A DNA stretch of 60,068 nt, taken from positions 1 through 60,068 of IMG/VR virus record IMGVR_UViG_3300015371_000037, one strand, 5' to 3'. The stretch comes from a virus. Each line of letters opens with the position of its first letter. Position 1 is the stretch's first letter. The position numbers and the translations under genes were made by a program. Shown here piece after piece: positions 3,099 to 56,020 of this stretch. Below the pieces are notes generated by a model that was not told where the DNA came from, searched no databases, and worked only from the letters and a program-made list of their open reading frames with translations.

Positions 3099-3635
3099 AT
3101 GGCCATCACAGCCACAGACATCTTGTACAAGTTCTCCGTGTCCGCTGCGGCGGGTGACACGACGGCTGGAACGGCCGCAACGTCTCTCGGAGACCAGATC
3201 TCGACCACGCAGATCACGGACGCCACATTGCACAACCTGTTCGACATCGTGACCGGCGACGACAACGCCGCGAGCGATGTGGAGTACAGGTGCTTCTTCG
3301 TCCACAACAACCACGCGACTCTGACCTGGGAGAATGTCGTGTGCTGGCTGTCGGCGGAAGTCGCAGGAGGTGCCGTTGCGGCCATATCCGTGGACACTAC
3401 CGGCGTGACGGCGAAGGGAAGCGCGAGCGCTCAGGCGAAGACGGTTGCGAACGAGAACACCGCTCCGGCTTCGCAGACTTTCACCAGCCCTACAACGAAG
3501 GGCACCGGTCTCTCCATCGGGAACATTCCGGCCGGATCGGTCGCAGCTATCTGGGTTCGTCGCTCCGCTGCGAACACAGGTGCCGTCGACAACGACGGCG
3601 TGACGATCCGTTGTGAAGGCGACACCGCCGCGTAG
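3099..3635 (+). CDS. Probable virion structural protein
   Basis: The 178-residue product is low in charge and rich in Ala, Thr, Ser and Val, with the alternating pattern of a beta-sandwich. It has no signal peptide. GGAGGGG lies ahead of the ATG. Similar proteins (start MAIxATDI, end with a Val/Arg-rich strand) are common beside W-repeat proteins in actinophages and are thought to be head or tail decoration. The exact role is unknown. Confidence 0.7.
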   Translation: MAITATDILYKFSVSAAAGDTTAGTAATSLGDQISTTQITDATLHNLFDIVTGDDNAASDVEYRCFFVHNNHATLTWENVVCWLSAEVAGGAVAAISVDTTGVTAKGSASAQAKTVANENTAPASQTFTSPTTKGTGLSIGNIPAGSVAAIWVRRSAANTGAVDNDGVTIRCEGDTAA

Positions 3636-24306: not shown

Positions 24307-24738
24307 ATGGAAGATGATGACTTGCAGATGTTCGTACAGCTTGGGACGATCGACAGCATCGACTGCGTGCCCCTCACGGACGCAGACCACGTTGCGGGTG
24401 GCATCCCGAAGTGGGCTGAGATCCGTCTCGACATCGAGCGAGACAACAAGATGCTCGTTCACTACTTCACCAGGCACGACGGCGAAGCGGTAAGCCTCGC
24501 CGTGCTGAAGGCGATGCACCCGAATGCCGGCAAGTCCATCAGCCTACACCTCTGGAACGCGATCGATGGGTGCATGGTGAACCTCATGCAGGGTGTGGTT
24601 TCCGGCGAGGAGAAGGCGAAGGAGCAGGGCCTGGCGCTAGGGCTTGCAACTGCACTTGCCCTTATTTACAACCCAAATGCGCCAGATGTGGATGCCGTCC
24701 GGCGCGAGGCACAAGCTCGATACGACGCGGCAGAGTGA
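24307..24738 (+). CDS. Unknown protein, 143 residues
   Basis: ATG 24307 lies one base after the preceding stop and gives MEDDDLQMFVQLGTIDSID. The product has an alpha/beta look with a hydrophobic C-terminal helix (LALGLATALALIYNP) that is too short and mixed to call a membrane anchor with confidence. No family is recognised. It is the last gene before the 785-base non-coding region. Confidence 0.65.
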   Translation: MEDDDLQMFVQLGTIDSIDCVPLTDADHVAGGIPKWAEIRLDIERDNKMLVHYFTRHDGEAVSLAVLKAMHPNAGKSISLHLWNAIDGCMVNLMQGVVSGEEKAKEQGLALGLATALALIYNPNAPDVDAVRREAQARYDAAE

Positions 24739-24901
24739 TGCAGTGCGTCCGATAATCGGGTGCACGACCCCTCGTGATTACTGCATATCGGACGCTGCTC
24801 CGATGGGGTTTCGTTACTGCAGGTTAGCATCACACATAGACGTGGTAACGTGCAGTAATAGTTTGTAACGATTTGATTACGGGATGGCGATTCGTTTTGT
24901 G

Positions 24902-24921
24902 TTCCCTACGCGCGTAGGGAA
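24902..24921. promoter_or_regulatory. Perfect 20-bp palindrome, putative operator
   Basis: TTCCCTACGCGCGTAGGGAA is a perfect palindrome. Its core TACGCGCGTA recurs at 30790, 38669 and 55077, three of the four copies being in non-coding DNA ahead of gene blocks. It lies at the start of the most structured part of the non-coding region, after an AT-richer stretch that could hold a promoter. A dimeric regulator site is the natural reading. Confidence 0.6.
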
Positions 24922-25419
24922 GAGTCATCCCCGCAACACCCATGCGGCCCGCTGAGGCCGTACCTCGTGAGCGATCGCGGGTGGCCCTGGACTTGGAGAT
25001 ACGCGCCGGAGTAGCGGCGAGGTAGCCGGACCAGAGAAGCCCCACCCATCCGAAGCCACCGGGACTCCGGGCAACCGGACGGCGAAGCCTGCCCTAGGGG
25101 AGAGGCTGAGTCGGAGCGTAGGTGCGAACTATCTCTAGCCACCCACAATCGCTCCGCTCGGCAAGCTACCAGGGAGGGAGCGAAACATGCTCCGAAGGAT
25201 CAACGTCTCCGGCGGTAACCGGAACCTGCATCGAAACAAACGCAGGGTCGTTACGAACAACGACATCTAGCTGCTCCCTTGTGGATGGCGAGGCTAGGCG
25301 ATGCGGGCAAGTCTGAAGAAGACTCGAATGGCTCTCAGCCAGGTTGTGACATGACCCCAGGAGACCAGGACAACTCAAGAAGGTGTACCGAACGATCCGC
25401 AGCGGAGTTGGATCGTTCA

Positions 25420-25478
25420 GCAACTCGCAGAGACGGCGGTAACCGTCGGCTGCCAGCCCGTTCGAGTCGGGCAGTTGC
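25420..25478 (+). other. tRNA-like element lacking an anticodon arm
   Basis: An acceptor-like stem GCAACT (25420-25425) / AGTTGC (25473-25478) encloses two hairpins. One is GACGG-CGGTAA-CCGTC (25432-25447), whose GGTAA loop resembles a D-loop. The other is GCCCG-TTCGAGT-CGGGC (25456-25472), a canonical five-pair T-arm with a seven-base TTCGANT loop, joined without gap to the acceptor strand as in tRNA. Only eight bases separate the two arms, so there is no anticodon arm. No CCA is encoded. It is too short for a standard tRNA. Confidence 0.55.
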
Positions 25479-25483
25479 ACGGA

Positions 25484-25504
25484 ATTGGGGCGTTGGGCCC
25501 CAAT
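25484..25504 (+). repeat. ATTGGGGC hairpin, copy 1
   Basis: ATTGGGGC (25484-25491) and GCCCCAAT (25497-25504) form an eight-bp stem with loop GTTGG. It ends 20 bases before the next start codon, so it is a leader element rather than a terminator of an upstream gene. Identical stems recur at 26192 and 27301. Confidence 0.7.
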
Positions 25505-25523
25505 CTAACAGGAAGGCAAGATC

Positions 25524-26186
25524 ATGACGAACACCACCCGCCGTACCAAGTCCGCTGCCGGCTCGAAGCTCGGCATCACCGGCGCCACCGTTCTGGCCGG
25601 AGCGCAGGCCGCAGCGAAGAAGGCTCCGGCGAAGCGGACTGCTCGCAAGACCACCACGCCGAAGCACTTCGACAACGTGCCGGAGACCGACAAGCCGGTA
25701 GCCAAGAAGGCGACGGCGAAGAAGACCACCGCCAAGAAGGCCGCATCCAACGAGCCCAAGGTGCTCAAGCGTGACGTGGCCTTCGAGGACCGTGACTGGA
25801 CGTACCTGGACGAGAAGGACCCGAGCATTCAGCAGGTTCTCTTCGCCCAGCAGATCAACATGCGGACCAACATCGAGATCGATGCCAAGCAGGTCCAGGC
25901 CGTTCTGGCCATGCACCCGTACTTCCAGCGCTCCGAGACCAACAAGAAGCGTCCGGACTACCACGGCCTTGACGCCGTTGTCGTGGAGCAACGCTCTGTC
26001 CACATGAAGCAGGCGCACGCCGACGCCAAGGAGATTCTGGACAGCCTGGCGGCAGAGTCCTTGAAGAAGCCGGCAGCGAAGAAGGCTCCGGCCAAAAAGA
26101 CGACGGCTGCGGCTCCGGCGAAGCGTCCGGCGCGAGTCACCCGCAAGACCACGGCTTCGGCCAAGAAGGCTGACGCCGCATTCTGA
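25524..26186 (+). CDS. Protein with Lys/Ala-rich histone-like tails
   Basis: The 220-residue product has basic disordered ends made of KKAPAKRTARKTTT- and PAAKKAPAKKTT-like repeats flanking a folded core (about residues 75-165, RDVAFEDRDWTYLDEKDPSIQQVLF ... HPYFQRSETNKKRPDYHG). Histone H1-like tails suggest DNA binding. GGAAGG precedes the start. Similar tails occur on the products at 34902 and 36581. The core is not recognised. Confidence 0.75.
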   Translation: MTNTTRRTKSAAGSKLGITGATVLAGAQAAAKKAPAKRTARKTTTPKHFDNVPETDKPVAKKATAKKTTAKKAASNEPKVLKRDVAFEDRDWTYLDEKDPSIQQVLFAQQINMRTNIEIDAKQVQAVLAMHPYFQRSETNKKRPDYHGLDAVVVEQRSVHMKQAHADAKEILDSLAAESLKKPAAKKAPAKKTTAAAPAKRPARVTRKTTASAKKADAAF

Positions 26187-26191
26187 TGCTG

Positions 26192-26212
26192 ATTGGGGCC
26201 CAAAGCCCCAAT
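26192..26212 (+). repeat. ATTGGGGC hairpin, copy 2
   Basis: ATTGGGGC (26192-26199), loop CCAAA, GCCCCAAT (26205-26212). It lies six bases after one stop codon and 35 bases before the next start. GCGCTGAC follows the stem, as it also does, a little further on, after copy 3. Confidence 0.7.
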
Positions 26213-27300: not shown

Positions 27301-27320
27301 ATTGGGGCCCAAAGCCCCAA
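27301..27320 (+). repeat. ATTGGGGC hairpin, copy 3
   Basis: ATTGGGGC (27301-27308), loop CCAAA, GCCCCAA (27314-27320): seven pairs, with the eighth position A-A. It starts directly at the protease stop codon and ends 44 bases before the next ATG. It may serve as terminator, leader element or both. Confidence 0.65.
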
Positions 27321-30490: not shown

Positions 30491-32443
30491 GTGGCGGTCG
30501 TGGTGGAGAAGATCGGCAACCGGATCTACCTGCGGACGCCTTGGGCTCCGGGGATGCCGGAGAGGTGCAAGAGCGTCCCTGGCGCTCGATGGAACAAGAC
30601 GGCGAAGGCTTGGACGTACGCCTGTGACTTGGAGGTCTGCCGGATGCTCCGAGAGGAGTTCAAGGATGACTTGCAGATCGGACCTGAGTTGACCTCTTGG
30701 GCACGCAATGAAGTCTCGCGGGAGCGAGCGGCGACGAACATGCTTCGAGCTTCTGGCATGGAGTACGACGAAAAATCCGTCAGTCTTCCTACGCGCGTAC
30801 GGACAGCACCACGAATGGCAAAGGCTCTTGAGGGCCGTCCGTTCCAGGTCCCGGGCGCGCGCTTCCTCGCCTACGCGAGGCAGGCTCTCATTGCAGATGA
30901 GCCGGGCATGGGCAAGACGATCCAGACTCTTGCTGCTCTCGTTGAGCTCATGACGGACGGCGGTAGGGTCCTCGTGCTGGGCCCGAAGACGGCTGTGACG
31001 GCGACATGGCGCCAGGAGATCCACAAGTGGCTTGAGGATTTCGAGCAGGGATACACGTTGACCTCCCTTGCCGGCCTGACCGCAGCCAAGCTCGATGAGG
31101 CGTTGGAGGAGTACGACGCGCTGCCTGATGATGGCCGGATCCACTTCCTACTGGGGAATGGCGAACTGGTACGCATCAAGTCAACCCGCACCTGTACCCG
31201 CGCCGGAGCAGAGAGAGGATGCGACGGCACGTTTGAGTGGTGCGAGTTCGCCGACAAGCACAAGGGTGCAATCGAGCCTCGCCTGCCCCGGATTTTCAAG
31301 CGGGAGTGGGATGCAATCATTGCGGACGAGACGCACCGCTGGCTCATCAACACACGAGGCAAGCACGCCTCGCAAGTCGGCCGTGGCTTCGTCGCGTTGC
31401 GCAGCACTGAGAACGGGCTGCGGTATGCGTTGACGGGTACGCCGTACAAGGGCAAGAAGCACAACCTGTTCGGCACGCTCAACTGGCTCCGGCCGAAGGT
31501 CTATACGTCGAAATGGAACTGGGTTGAGCGCTACTTCGTTGTGACGGAGAATGAGCACGGCGGACGGACGATTGGGGACATCATCCCTGATCGTGCGGAG
31601 TCCCTGTTCCGCAGCCTTGATGCGATCTGCCTCCGGCGCACCAAGTCGGAGATCCGGAAGATCAACCCGGCGTGGATGCCGCCTGACAAGATGTACCATG
31701 AGGTCAAGGTGCAGATGGATCCCAAGCAACTGAGGGCATACAAGGCCATTAGCCGTGATGCGGAGGTCCAACTCAAGGGTGGAACCCTTACGACGTTGGG
31801 CGTGCTCTCGGAGTTCACCCGGCTCAAGCAGTTCGCATCTTGTTACGGCGAGCTCAACTCCAAGGGTGAGTTCGTCCCATCGTTGCCGTCTGGGAAGTTT
31901 GAGTGGTTGCTTGACTTCCTGGAGGAACGTGGCATAGAGGCCAAGCAGGGATCGGCCCGTAACGGCGATCTAAGCGATGAAGTCCACAAGGTCATAGTCG
32001 CGTCCCAGTTCACCAAGAACATCAACCTATGGGCCGCTGAGCTTGTGGCGAAGGGCATCCAGTGCTATGTGCTTACCGGTCAGACCTCCGAGAAGGATCG
32101 TGCGCGCATTGTCGAGAGCTTCCAGGCCGGAGACGACGTGCGCGTGTTCCTCATCAACACGACGGCTGGTGGCGTGTCGATCACATTGGACACGGCCGAC
32201 GATGTCGTCATCATGGACGAGACGTGGGTGCCCGATGATCAAATCCAGGTTGAGGATCGCGCGCACCGCGCATCAAACGTCAAGCACCAAGTGCACGTTT
32301 GGTACGTTCGGGCCGAAGGAACCGTTGAGGAGGACATCGCCAAGGCCAACTTCGCCAAGGCAGAAAGCAACTTCGTGATGCTTGACAAGCGCCGTGCCCT
32401 AGAGTTCGCTGGGGATCACTACGGCATTGACCCGAAGTCGTGA
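30491..32443 (+). CDS. SNF2-family helicase
   Basis: GTG 30491 follows AAGGAG at good spacing; an in-frame ATG at 30392 overlaps the promoter-like TTGACA. The 650-residue product has motif I DEPGMGKT near 136, motif II DETH near 279, motif III ALTGTP near 313 and the C-terminal motifs NTTAGGVSITLD and QVEDRAHR (about 586). It is an ATP-driven dsDNA translocase of the SWI2/SNF2 type, like those in many large actinophages, probably in replication or recombination. One operator-like palindrome lies within it at 30790. Confidence 0.9.
   Translation: MAVVVEKIGNRIYLRTPWAPGMPERCKSVPGARWNKTAKAWTYACDLEVCRMLREEFKDDLQIGPELTSWARNEVSRERAATNMLRASGMEYDEKSVSLPTRVRTAPRMAKALEGRPFQVPGARFLAYARQALIADEPGMGKTIQTLAALVELMTDGGRVLVLGPKTAVTATWRQEIHKWLEDFEQGYTLTSLAGLTAAKLDEALEEYDALPDDGRIHFLLGNGELVRIKSTRTCTRAGAERGCDGTFEWCEFADKHKGAIEPRLPRIFKREWDAIIADETHRWLINTRGKHASQVGRGFVALRSTENGLRYALTGTPYKGKKHNLFGTLNWLRPKVYTSKWNWVERYFVVTENEHGGRTIGDIIPDRAESLFRSLDAICLRRTKSEIRKINPAWMPPDKMYHEVKVQMDPKQLRAYKAISRDAEVQLKGGTLTTLGVLSEFTRLKQFASCYGELNSKGEFVPSLPSGKFEWLLDFLEERGIEAKQGSARNGDLSDEVHKVIVASQFTKNINLWAAELVAKGIQCYVLTGQTSEKDRARIVESFQAGDDVRVFLINTTAGGVSITLDTADDVVIMDETWVPDDQIQVEDRAHRASNVKHQVHVWYVRAEGTVEEDIAKANFAKAESNFVMLDKRRALEFAGDHYGIDPKS
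30790..30799. promoter_or_regulatory. TACGCGCGTA site inside the SNF2 gene
   Basis: This is an exact core copy (flanks TCC and CGGA), 300 bases into the helicase gene and about 400 bases after the candidate promoter. It is the only copy inside a gene, so it may be chance or a downstream operator. Confidence 0.4.
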
Positions 32444-54975: not shown

Positions 54976-55208
54976 ACATCGAATTTGTATACGCGATACG
55001 CGGGAGCGCTAGCGCGCGGCGGCGAGGACCTTTGAAAACCTGTCACGAAACATTCTCCGAAAAGTGCTGCTGTTCCTACGCGCGTAAGGAAATTGCGGGA
55101 TTTTGGCATGGGGAGGGTGAGGGGAGTTTTTAGGTTGTCGGCCGTTGGCGCGCTCGCTCGCGTAAGGAATTGGGGTTTGTGGTGTTTGTAGCTGGTGAGG
55201 GAGTGATT
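54976..55208. promoter_or_regulatory. Non-coding control region with operator-like repeats
   Basis: This gap contains GCGCTAGCGC near 55007, the palindrome core TACGCGCGTA at 55077-55086, and two direct copies of CGCGTAAGGAA at 55081-55091 and 55159-55169. TTGAAA near 55032 could be a -35, but no good -10 follows. The region sits ahead of the terminase genes, so it is a reasonable place for a late promoter. No gene was found in it. Confidence 0.55.
55077..55086. promoter_or_regulatory. TACGCGCGTA site before the late genes
   Basis: Fourth copy of the palindrome core, with flanks TTCC and AGGAA. It partly overlaps the first CGCGTAAGGAA copy. Confidence 0.55.
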
Positions 55209-55631
55209 GTGGACAAGCGTGTGAAGCGTGGGGAGTTCTGGATTGCGCCGGTGATCATGGTGGCGTCCAGTTGCCAGCATATAGTGGGAGAGCGGCATAG
55301 GGTGCTCGTGATGGACCTGATGACGCTCGTTGCTGATCTTGCTGGTGCTCCTGGTGAGAGGGTGCCTTTGGGCGGAATCCAGATGGGGAGATTTGGATTG
55401 GTGCTGAAGGGATATGCGGCGACTGACATTTGGGCAATTCAGCGCAACATCCTCTGGGAGGATGAACACTGCATGCATTGCTGTGGAGGTCTGCTGCGAT
55501 TCGTTGATCAAATTCACGACCGGGTACTTGTACGGTGTGGACCTACAATTGGCGTCGAATGGAATGCTTCACGTGAAGAACTGACGACTGCTGATGCGAG
55601 GCGAATCACTGATGAGTACTGGACCGATTGA
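55209..55631 (+). CDS. Unknown protein, 140 residues
   Basis: The frame opens at TTG 55170, with GTG at 55203 and 55209; I prefer 55209, eight bases after GAGG. The product (MDKRVKRGEFWIAPVIMVASSCQHIV) is alpha/beta with Cys pairs (DEHCMHCCGGLL) that may bind metal. No family is recognised. Confidence 0.6.
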   Translation: MDKRVKRGEFWIAPVIMVASSCQHIVGERHRVLVMDLMTLVADLAGAPGERVPLGGIQMGRFGLVLKGYAATDIWAIQRNILWEDEHCMHCCGGLLRFVDQIHDRVLVRCGPTIGVEWNASREELTTADARRITDEYWTD

Positions 55632-55977
55632 GTTCATCCGATCTACGCCGGTCGATGACCTAGGGAGCACGGAGTATGGTGGCGATCCTGGCCTTGTTGC
55701 TGGCGGCGATCCTGGTGGTGCTGTGGGCCTGTCTGGTCGCGGTGTCGATCATCTCGCTCATCTGAAGACGAGCGAACGGCTTGGGATTGCCCACCGGGCC
55801 AAGTCTTCTGCACATGATGAGGTCTCGGTGGACGAAGATGGTGTCGTGAACGTTCAGCAGGTCTTGGTGAACGACGGCATCGATCCGGTGACCGGACTCA
55901 CTGTTGACGATGCTGACATCGAGGATGGTGCGCCTGGTGTACCGGCCACTGACTTTGTCGGCGGACCCAACGCCTGA
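55612..55977 (+). CDS. Acidic protein upstream of terminase, 121 residues
   Basis: ATG 55612 overlaps the previous gene by 20 bases. Only the C-terminal half (VSVDEDGVVNVQQVLVNDGIDPVTG) looks confidently coding; the N-terminal half has a Gly/Asp-rich, low-confidence composition and shares DNA with the membrane peptide at 55676. The true start may lie further downstream. Function unknown. Confidence 0.45.
   Translation: MSTGPIEFIRSTPVDDLGSTEYGGDPGLVAGGDPGGAVGLSGRGVDHLAHLKTSERLGIAHRAKSSAHDEVSVDEDGVVNVQQVLVNDGIDPVTGLTVDDADIEDGAPGVPATDFVGGPNA
55676..55765 (+). CDS. Hydrophobic 29-residue peptide
   Basis: ATG 55676 follows GGGAGCACGGAG. The product MVAILALLLAAILVVLWACL... is an uninterrupted membrane helix of 29 residues ending ISLI. 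It is nested in a different frame inside 55612-55977, whose N-terminal part looks weak, so this peptide may be the real product of the region. Confidence 0.5.
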   Translation: MVAILALLLAAILVVLWACLVAVSIISLI

Positions 55978-56020
55978 GTTGACCAAATCATCTTGATCTG
56001 ACTGCGGAGTGGAGTGAACA

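Follow-up and report, generated by a model that had tools for sequence, protein, structure and literature searches.

A gap between two genes of an uncultured phage very probably holds a conserved structured RNA of about 560 nt, as judged from its sequence and from those of three homologs. The RNA lies on the + strand, occupies the same position in all four phages and ends in a contiguous tRNA-like domain (Table 1). The case for it is carried by an excess of hairpins and by compensatory base changes, and not by folding energy.

The locus and its relatives

The window analysed here is the complete 60,068-base IMG/VR virus record IMGVR_UViG_3300015371_000037. It encodes endolysin, terminase and portal genes which, together with the nearest cultured terminases (about 51% identical, from Gordonia phages), point to an actinobacterial tailed phage as its source. 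The gap (24739-25523) extends from the stop codon of one gene to the start codon of the next, both on the same strand, with the endolysin region on its 5' side and the helicase and further replication genes on its 3' side. The initial annotation had described a gene-free region of 785 bp at 24741-25505; the length is exactly that of the gap, but those limits take in 765 bp of it.

Homologs of the RNA were identified in three uncultured IMG/VR phages sharing the same gene order. Two of these, 3300037193_000488 (G005) and 3300049432_000036 (G006), were found via a terminase search, and the third, 3300000363_000132 (L148), by searching with the upstream protein. The RNA follows the same upstream gene in all three relatives (72% identical in G005 and 55% in G006) and precedes an ortholog of the same downstream gene, with other small genes intervening on the downstream side. 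The gene immediately following the RNA differs between phages; in each of the four, it starts some 30 to 70 nt past the tRNA-like end. The aligned RNAs are 67% (L148) and 59% (G005 and G006) identical to that of the window, a range in which compensatory change is informative.

No relatives of the RNA were found among 50,697 records of cultured phages or 72,556 plasmids, nor was a homolog found in 396 genomes from the phylum of a Streptomyces, a sample searched without a positive control. When conserved motifs of the RNA or the operator were used to scan the entire viral collection, no members other than G005, G006 and L148 were returned, so the class appears to be either narrow or under-sampled, and comprises four uncultured metagenome phages so far. 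A combined scan for the hairpin loop and the T-arm yielded no new member in the viral collection and none in the genome collection among 80 stretches scored from the matches listed. Covariance matches in three further genomes (G024, G020 and G035) were judged to be due to chance or unproven.

Noncoding gaps of 578 to 1097 bp precede the homolog of the downstream gene in Gordonia Terapinvirus phages and in Nocardia phage P3.1 (L004, L005, L006 and L008). They are filled mostly with GCGCGATC...CGCGCC-type repeats and were rejected as homologs, being repeat-rich DNA with no similarity to the RNA. Another element of this neighbourhood resembles a type II hammerhead ribozyme (GGTCGAAA...GTC...CTGACGA...GACC). 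It is found just upstream of the downstream-gene ortholog in L118 (8739-8801, + strand) and was recognised by eye in L148 (5713-5780, + strand) and L117 (around 3470-3545, - strand). The Rfam Hammerhead_II model scores 30.7 bits in G006 (E 0.012), below its cutoff of 37, and the core seen by eye in G005 and L148 has no Rfam match. The window lacks this element.

Hairpins, covariation and strand

The gap contains 17 hairpins if these are defined as perfect stems of 5 bp or more that do not overlap and that enclose loops of 3 to 12 nt. The mean in 200 dinucleotide shuffles is 5.9 and the maximum 12; no other 785-bp window of the same genome exceeds 13. These figures bear out the initial annotation's claim of at least 16 short-looped inverted repeats at a density beyond chance. 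The "several" stems of 7-9 bp that it mentioned come down to three of at least 7 bp, a number equal to the shuffle maximum, while its GNRA tetraloop (TCCGG-GCAA-CCGGA) and its two CGGTAA-loop hairpins (CGGCGGTAACCG at 25210 and 25434) are confirmed. The absence of an open frame was overstated, since the gap is overlapped by an antisense frame of 227 codons and by several frames 64 to 104 codons long; still, none of the six frames tested is kept, all showing stops or breaks in the homologs. Folding energy is not discriminating in this GC-rich genome. The z-score is about -4.2 for the whole gap on both strands and -2.2 for the 561-nt RNA core, as compared with a mean of -1.5 and a minimum of -5.2 in 21 other genome windows. 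With so weak a contrast, energy alone would not settle the question.

Covariation gives a clearer answer. Across the 3' domain (25390-25481), a four-sequence alignment shows standard pairing in each of 108 base-pair cells and a double change in 17 of the 29 pairs, a result reached by none of 500 shuffles; sliding the partners leaves at most one double-change pair. Within hairpin H, 36 of 36 cells are paired and 5 of 9 pairs are doubly changed. Because the structure had guided this alignment, the result was checked independently with plain MAFFT pairwise alignments and with no hairpins other than the perfect ones of the window. The pairs kept in the three homologs were 51/65, 42/55 and 36/59, against at most 30, 29 and 20 with slid partners. 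Furthermore, when three of the phages were used to build a covariance model of the 3' domain, it recovered the most distant relative, G006, which had been held out (43.8 bits, E 1.6e-5; best unrelated match in the same 290 kb, E 0.7). In the body, double changes affect 5/5 pairs of P1, 3/5 of P2 and 4/5 of P6. Automatic four-way alignments misplace several stems, and these hairpins and P7 were therefore counted on hand alignments, which lean towards structure. Several loops stay constant while their stems vary: CGCTG[A/T] in P1, the GNRA loop of P3, G[C/A]AGCGGAGTT in H and the T-loop. The structural alignment of relatives thus reveals compensatory changes in all three homologs, lending strong support to the proposal of a large structured RNA. 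When the named helices are read on the + strand, five G-U pairs and no A-C pairs are found, which places the RNA on that strand.

Table 1. Features of the gap and its surroundings. Positions refer to the window unless another genome is named.
Feature	Position	Strand	Remarks
Upstream gene	24307-24738	+	Weak match to phrog_5406, function unknown
Conserved non-RNA region, probable control DNA	24739-24901		Inverted TATCGGACG motifs (24745-24754/24786-24795); blocks common to four phages
20-bp perfect palindrome TTCCCTACGCGCGTAGGGAA	24902-24921		Core CCCTACGCGCGTAGGG invariant in 4/4 phages
Large structured RNA	24922-25481	+	Homologs and covariation; predicted ends
Hairpin P1	24945-24960	+	CGGCC-CGCTGA-GGCCG; loop conserved, stem covaries
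Long-range helix 24969-24985/25138-25154	24969-25154	+	88% complementary; encloses multi-hairpin domain; partly kept in L148
Hairpin P2	25004-25019	+	Flanked by conserved GAGATACG and GGTAGCC
Hairpin P3	25066-25079	+	GNRA loop GCAA (GAAA in G005, G006); nearly invariant
Hairpin P4	25086-25107	+	AGCCTGC...GAGAGGCT; conserved core motif
Hairpin P6	25177-25193	+	GGAGC/GCTCC; in relatives GAACC/GGTTC, AGACC/GGTCT, GAGCC/GGCTC
Hairpin P7	25208-25223	+	Loop CGGTAA, identical to loop in tRNA-like domain
Variable domain	25224-25345	+	Hairpins 25247-25264 and 25310-25324; mostly absent or altered in G005, G006
Hairpin H	25390-25418	+	9-bp stem; near-invariant 11-nt loop
tRNA-like domain	25420-25481	+	Three-way junction (25420-25479); contiguous, 62 nt
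Acceptor-like stem	25420-25425/25473-25478	+	6 bp, then ACG
Middle arm	25427-25430/25450-25453 and 25432-25436/25443-25447	+	Two-part; loop CGGTAA
T-arm	25456-25460/25468-25472	+	5-bp stem, loop TTCGAGT; directly stacked on acceptor-like strand
Hairpin ATTGGGGC-GTTGG-GCCCCAAT	25484-25504	+	3' of RNA; related hairpins at 26193, 27302
Downstream gene	25524-26186	+	Lys/Ala-rich; weak, below-cutoff match to histone H1-like HC2
tRNA or tRNA-like elements of distant phages	L349 ~3949 (-), L361 ~9702 (-), L354 ~7962 (+), L353 ~15403 (-), L364 ~2238 (-)		

The tRNA-like domain and the flanking DNA

All four phages have a 5-bp T-arm with a TTCRAGT loop stacked on a conserved acceptor-like stem, the loop of G006 having one extra base and its middle arm being longer. 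The sequence of the acceptor-like stem varies freely (GCAACT/AGTTGC, GCATCC/GGATGC, GGCCCT/AGGGCC and GCCCCG/CGGGGC), each version being followed by ACG. A descriptor combining acceptor stem and T-arm finds nine matches in these phage genomes and none in shuffles. The domain lacks both a recognisable anticodon arm and an encoded CCA, and a full tRNA cloverleaf is called in the RNA region by neither ARAGORN nor Rfam. The initial annotation had made no mention of this domain, which is the most informative part of the region. Apart from three matches that were expected, tRNA genes or degenerate tRNA-like elements are found between a Lys/Ala-rich gene and a Cas4-like nuclease gene in five more distant phages; three of the five are not called by ARAGORN.

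On the 5' side, the first 180 bp or so of the gap show conservation chiefly of sequence blocks among the four aligned phages and are probably promoter/operator DNA, the palindrome being a probable operator. Near-copies of the palindrome occur at 30787 and 55074 in the window and elsewhere in the genomes as well. The idea that the RNA fills almost the whole gap must be trimmed to that extent, which leaves approximately 24922-25481 as the RNA proper. No sigma-70-like promoter was found. The near-copy at 55074-55089 falls within a poorly coding stretch of about 1 kb (54976-56020) upstream of the terminase genes.

Beyond the 3' end, TTGGGGC...GCCCCAA hairpins separate successive genes (25485-25503, 26193-26211 and 27302-27320), with five pattern matches in the window where 0.38 are expected. 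They are possibly terminators or a shared regulatory site.

Possible roles and comparison with known RNAs

There is, in our estimate, about an even chance that the junction of late and early genes specifies a large structured phage RNA of a new and narrow class, whose tRNA-like end is processed so as to release or stabilise it and whose body serves as a scaffold. A + strand RNA of some 500-560 nt would be made where the lysis genes end and the early/replication block opens, its transcription starting probably near the palindromic operator. It would fold into the multi-hairpin body, the variable domain, the 9-bp hairpin with its near-invariant loop and the tRNA-like domain, where the T-arm would stack on the acceptor-like stem. 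The middle arm may use its CGGUAA loop to dock into the T-loop, in the way that the D-loop of a tRNA does. With the next gene only 30-70 nt away and no T-rich terminator found after the tRNA-like end in the window, the RNA is likely co-transcribed with the genes that follow. The same short distance makes punctuation the most likely function of the tRNA-like domain, and a tRNA geometry without a tRNA sequence at such a place is most simply read as a processing or protective signal for host tRNA enzymes. These might cut or protect the RNA, with RNase P acting on the 5' side of the domain and 3' trimming at A25479, so that the RNA is separated from the operon mRNA or its 3' end is shielded. Recognition by RNase P or the CCA enzyme is not assured, given that the acceptor-like stem has 6 bp, not 7, and that no CCA is encoded. 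Once released, the body could serve the infecting phage as a stable RNA scaffold or assembly, as supposed for GOLLD and ROOL; its size, ornateness and phage setting suggest this by analogy only. Tentatively, the locus might represent a class of ornate phage RNAs combining a host-processed 3' tRNA mimic, a counterpart of MALAT1-mascRNA, with a self-assembling scaffold body.

The main rival, which we consider rather unlikely, is that the early operon has the RNA as its cis-acting leader, which might, for example, cause anti-termination through RNA polymerase, as put RNAs and rrn leaders do, or control the next gene. In every case the RNA stands first in the early block, on the same strand as the next gene and 30-70 nt ahead of it, downstream of probable operators; this would fit such a role, as would an exact GAGAACTCAATAG in the syntenic gap of Nocardia phage P3.1 (L006:2996-3008), which resembles the NusA/boxC site of actinobacterial rrn leaders. 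However, the next gene is not the same in different phages, a leader has no need of a tRNA-like 3' end, and known put-type leaders are far smaller than this RNA. The rrn-like motifs are at chance level in the window (8 matches versus 10.4 expected), and a boxC-like site in the RNA was rejected on this ground. A quite improbable alternative is that the inverted repeats act as DNA hairpins in a replication origin or a packaging or partition site. Conservation of the first 180 bp or so as DNA and the repeat-rich gaps of the Terapinvirus and P3.1 genomes are in line with such an element, but RNA is the better fit for a tRNA-like junction, for GNRA loops and a tRNA T-loop lying on a single strand, and for G-U pairs without A-C pairs. 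Very improbable, finally, is a highly diverged GOLLD, ROOL, intron or tmRNA that the Rfam models missed. The size, phage setting and ornate look do resemble GOLLD and ROOL, and covariance models can miss diverged members; yet Rfam 15, at gathering and permissive thresholds, returned no known family for the RNA, and none of these classes in the window (E up to 10) or the three homologs (E up to 5). This agrees with the initial annotation, which could not match the region to a known consensus and had named a match to a known element, such as an intron, as the outcome that would undo its proposal.

By the tests available, then, the phage RNA appears to be neither GOLLD, ROOL, intron, tmRNA nor tRNA. 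Group I and group II intron models gave no match. Bacterial Y RNAs such as YrlA are noncoding RNAs containing a tRNA mimic; the phage RNA is much larger and has no Rfam match, and a Ro60/Y RNA reading was discarded as no TROVE/Ro60 gene is present in the window, G005, G006 or G043, a search covering phage records. Like tmRNA, the RNA is large and has a T-arm and an acceptor-like stem at its 3' end, but tmRNA builds its tRNA-like part from both RNA ends, whereas here it is a contiguous 62 nt lacking an encoded CCA; ARAGORN and Rfam were both negative for tmRNA. As a large ornate RNA in a phage genome, it is of the same general kind as GOLLD and ROOL, the two classes nearest to it, although membership was rejected in the absence of a match to either family's covariance model. 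GOLLD, found in phages and prophages and often close to tRNAs, is a noncoding RNA of very large size, rich in hairpins, one part of which is variable and another conserved (PMC12286853). The phage RNA shares these traits of size, hairpin richness, setting and two-part conservation; it differs in length (about 560 nt versus more than 800 nt) and in that a tRNA-like piece, not a functional-looking tRNA, forms its own 3' domain. ROOL is alike in size range (659 nt in one example) and phage setting, but no tRNA-like 3' domain is described for it in PMC12286853; according to the same source, GOLLD and ROOL form RNA-only multimeric cages with no assigned function. A parallel to the proposed processing is MALAT1, where RNase P cuts at a tRNA mimic 3' of a long noncoding RNA (PMC11693755). 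The order of long noncoding RNA and tRNA mimic is the same in both; MALAT1/mascRNA is eukaryotic and unrelated in sequence, and RNase P processing of the phage RNA is a proposal. Giant structured phage RNAs are a known general kind; the new part would be that one of them has a contiguous tRNA mimic for its 3' domain, of which no example was found in the literature searched. If confirmed, this would be a case of a bacterial virus with a long noncoding RNA that owes its 3' end to borrowed tRNA processing. To the few giant phage RNA classes known, the present RNA adds a recognisable 3' tRNA mimic, which provides a directly testable handle on it.
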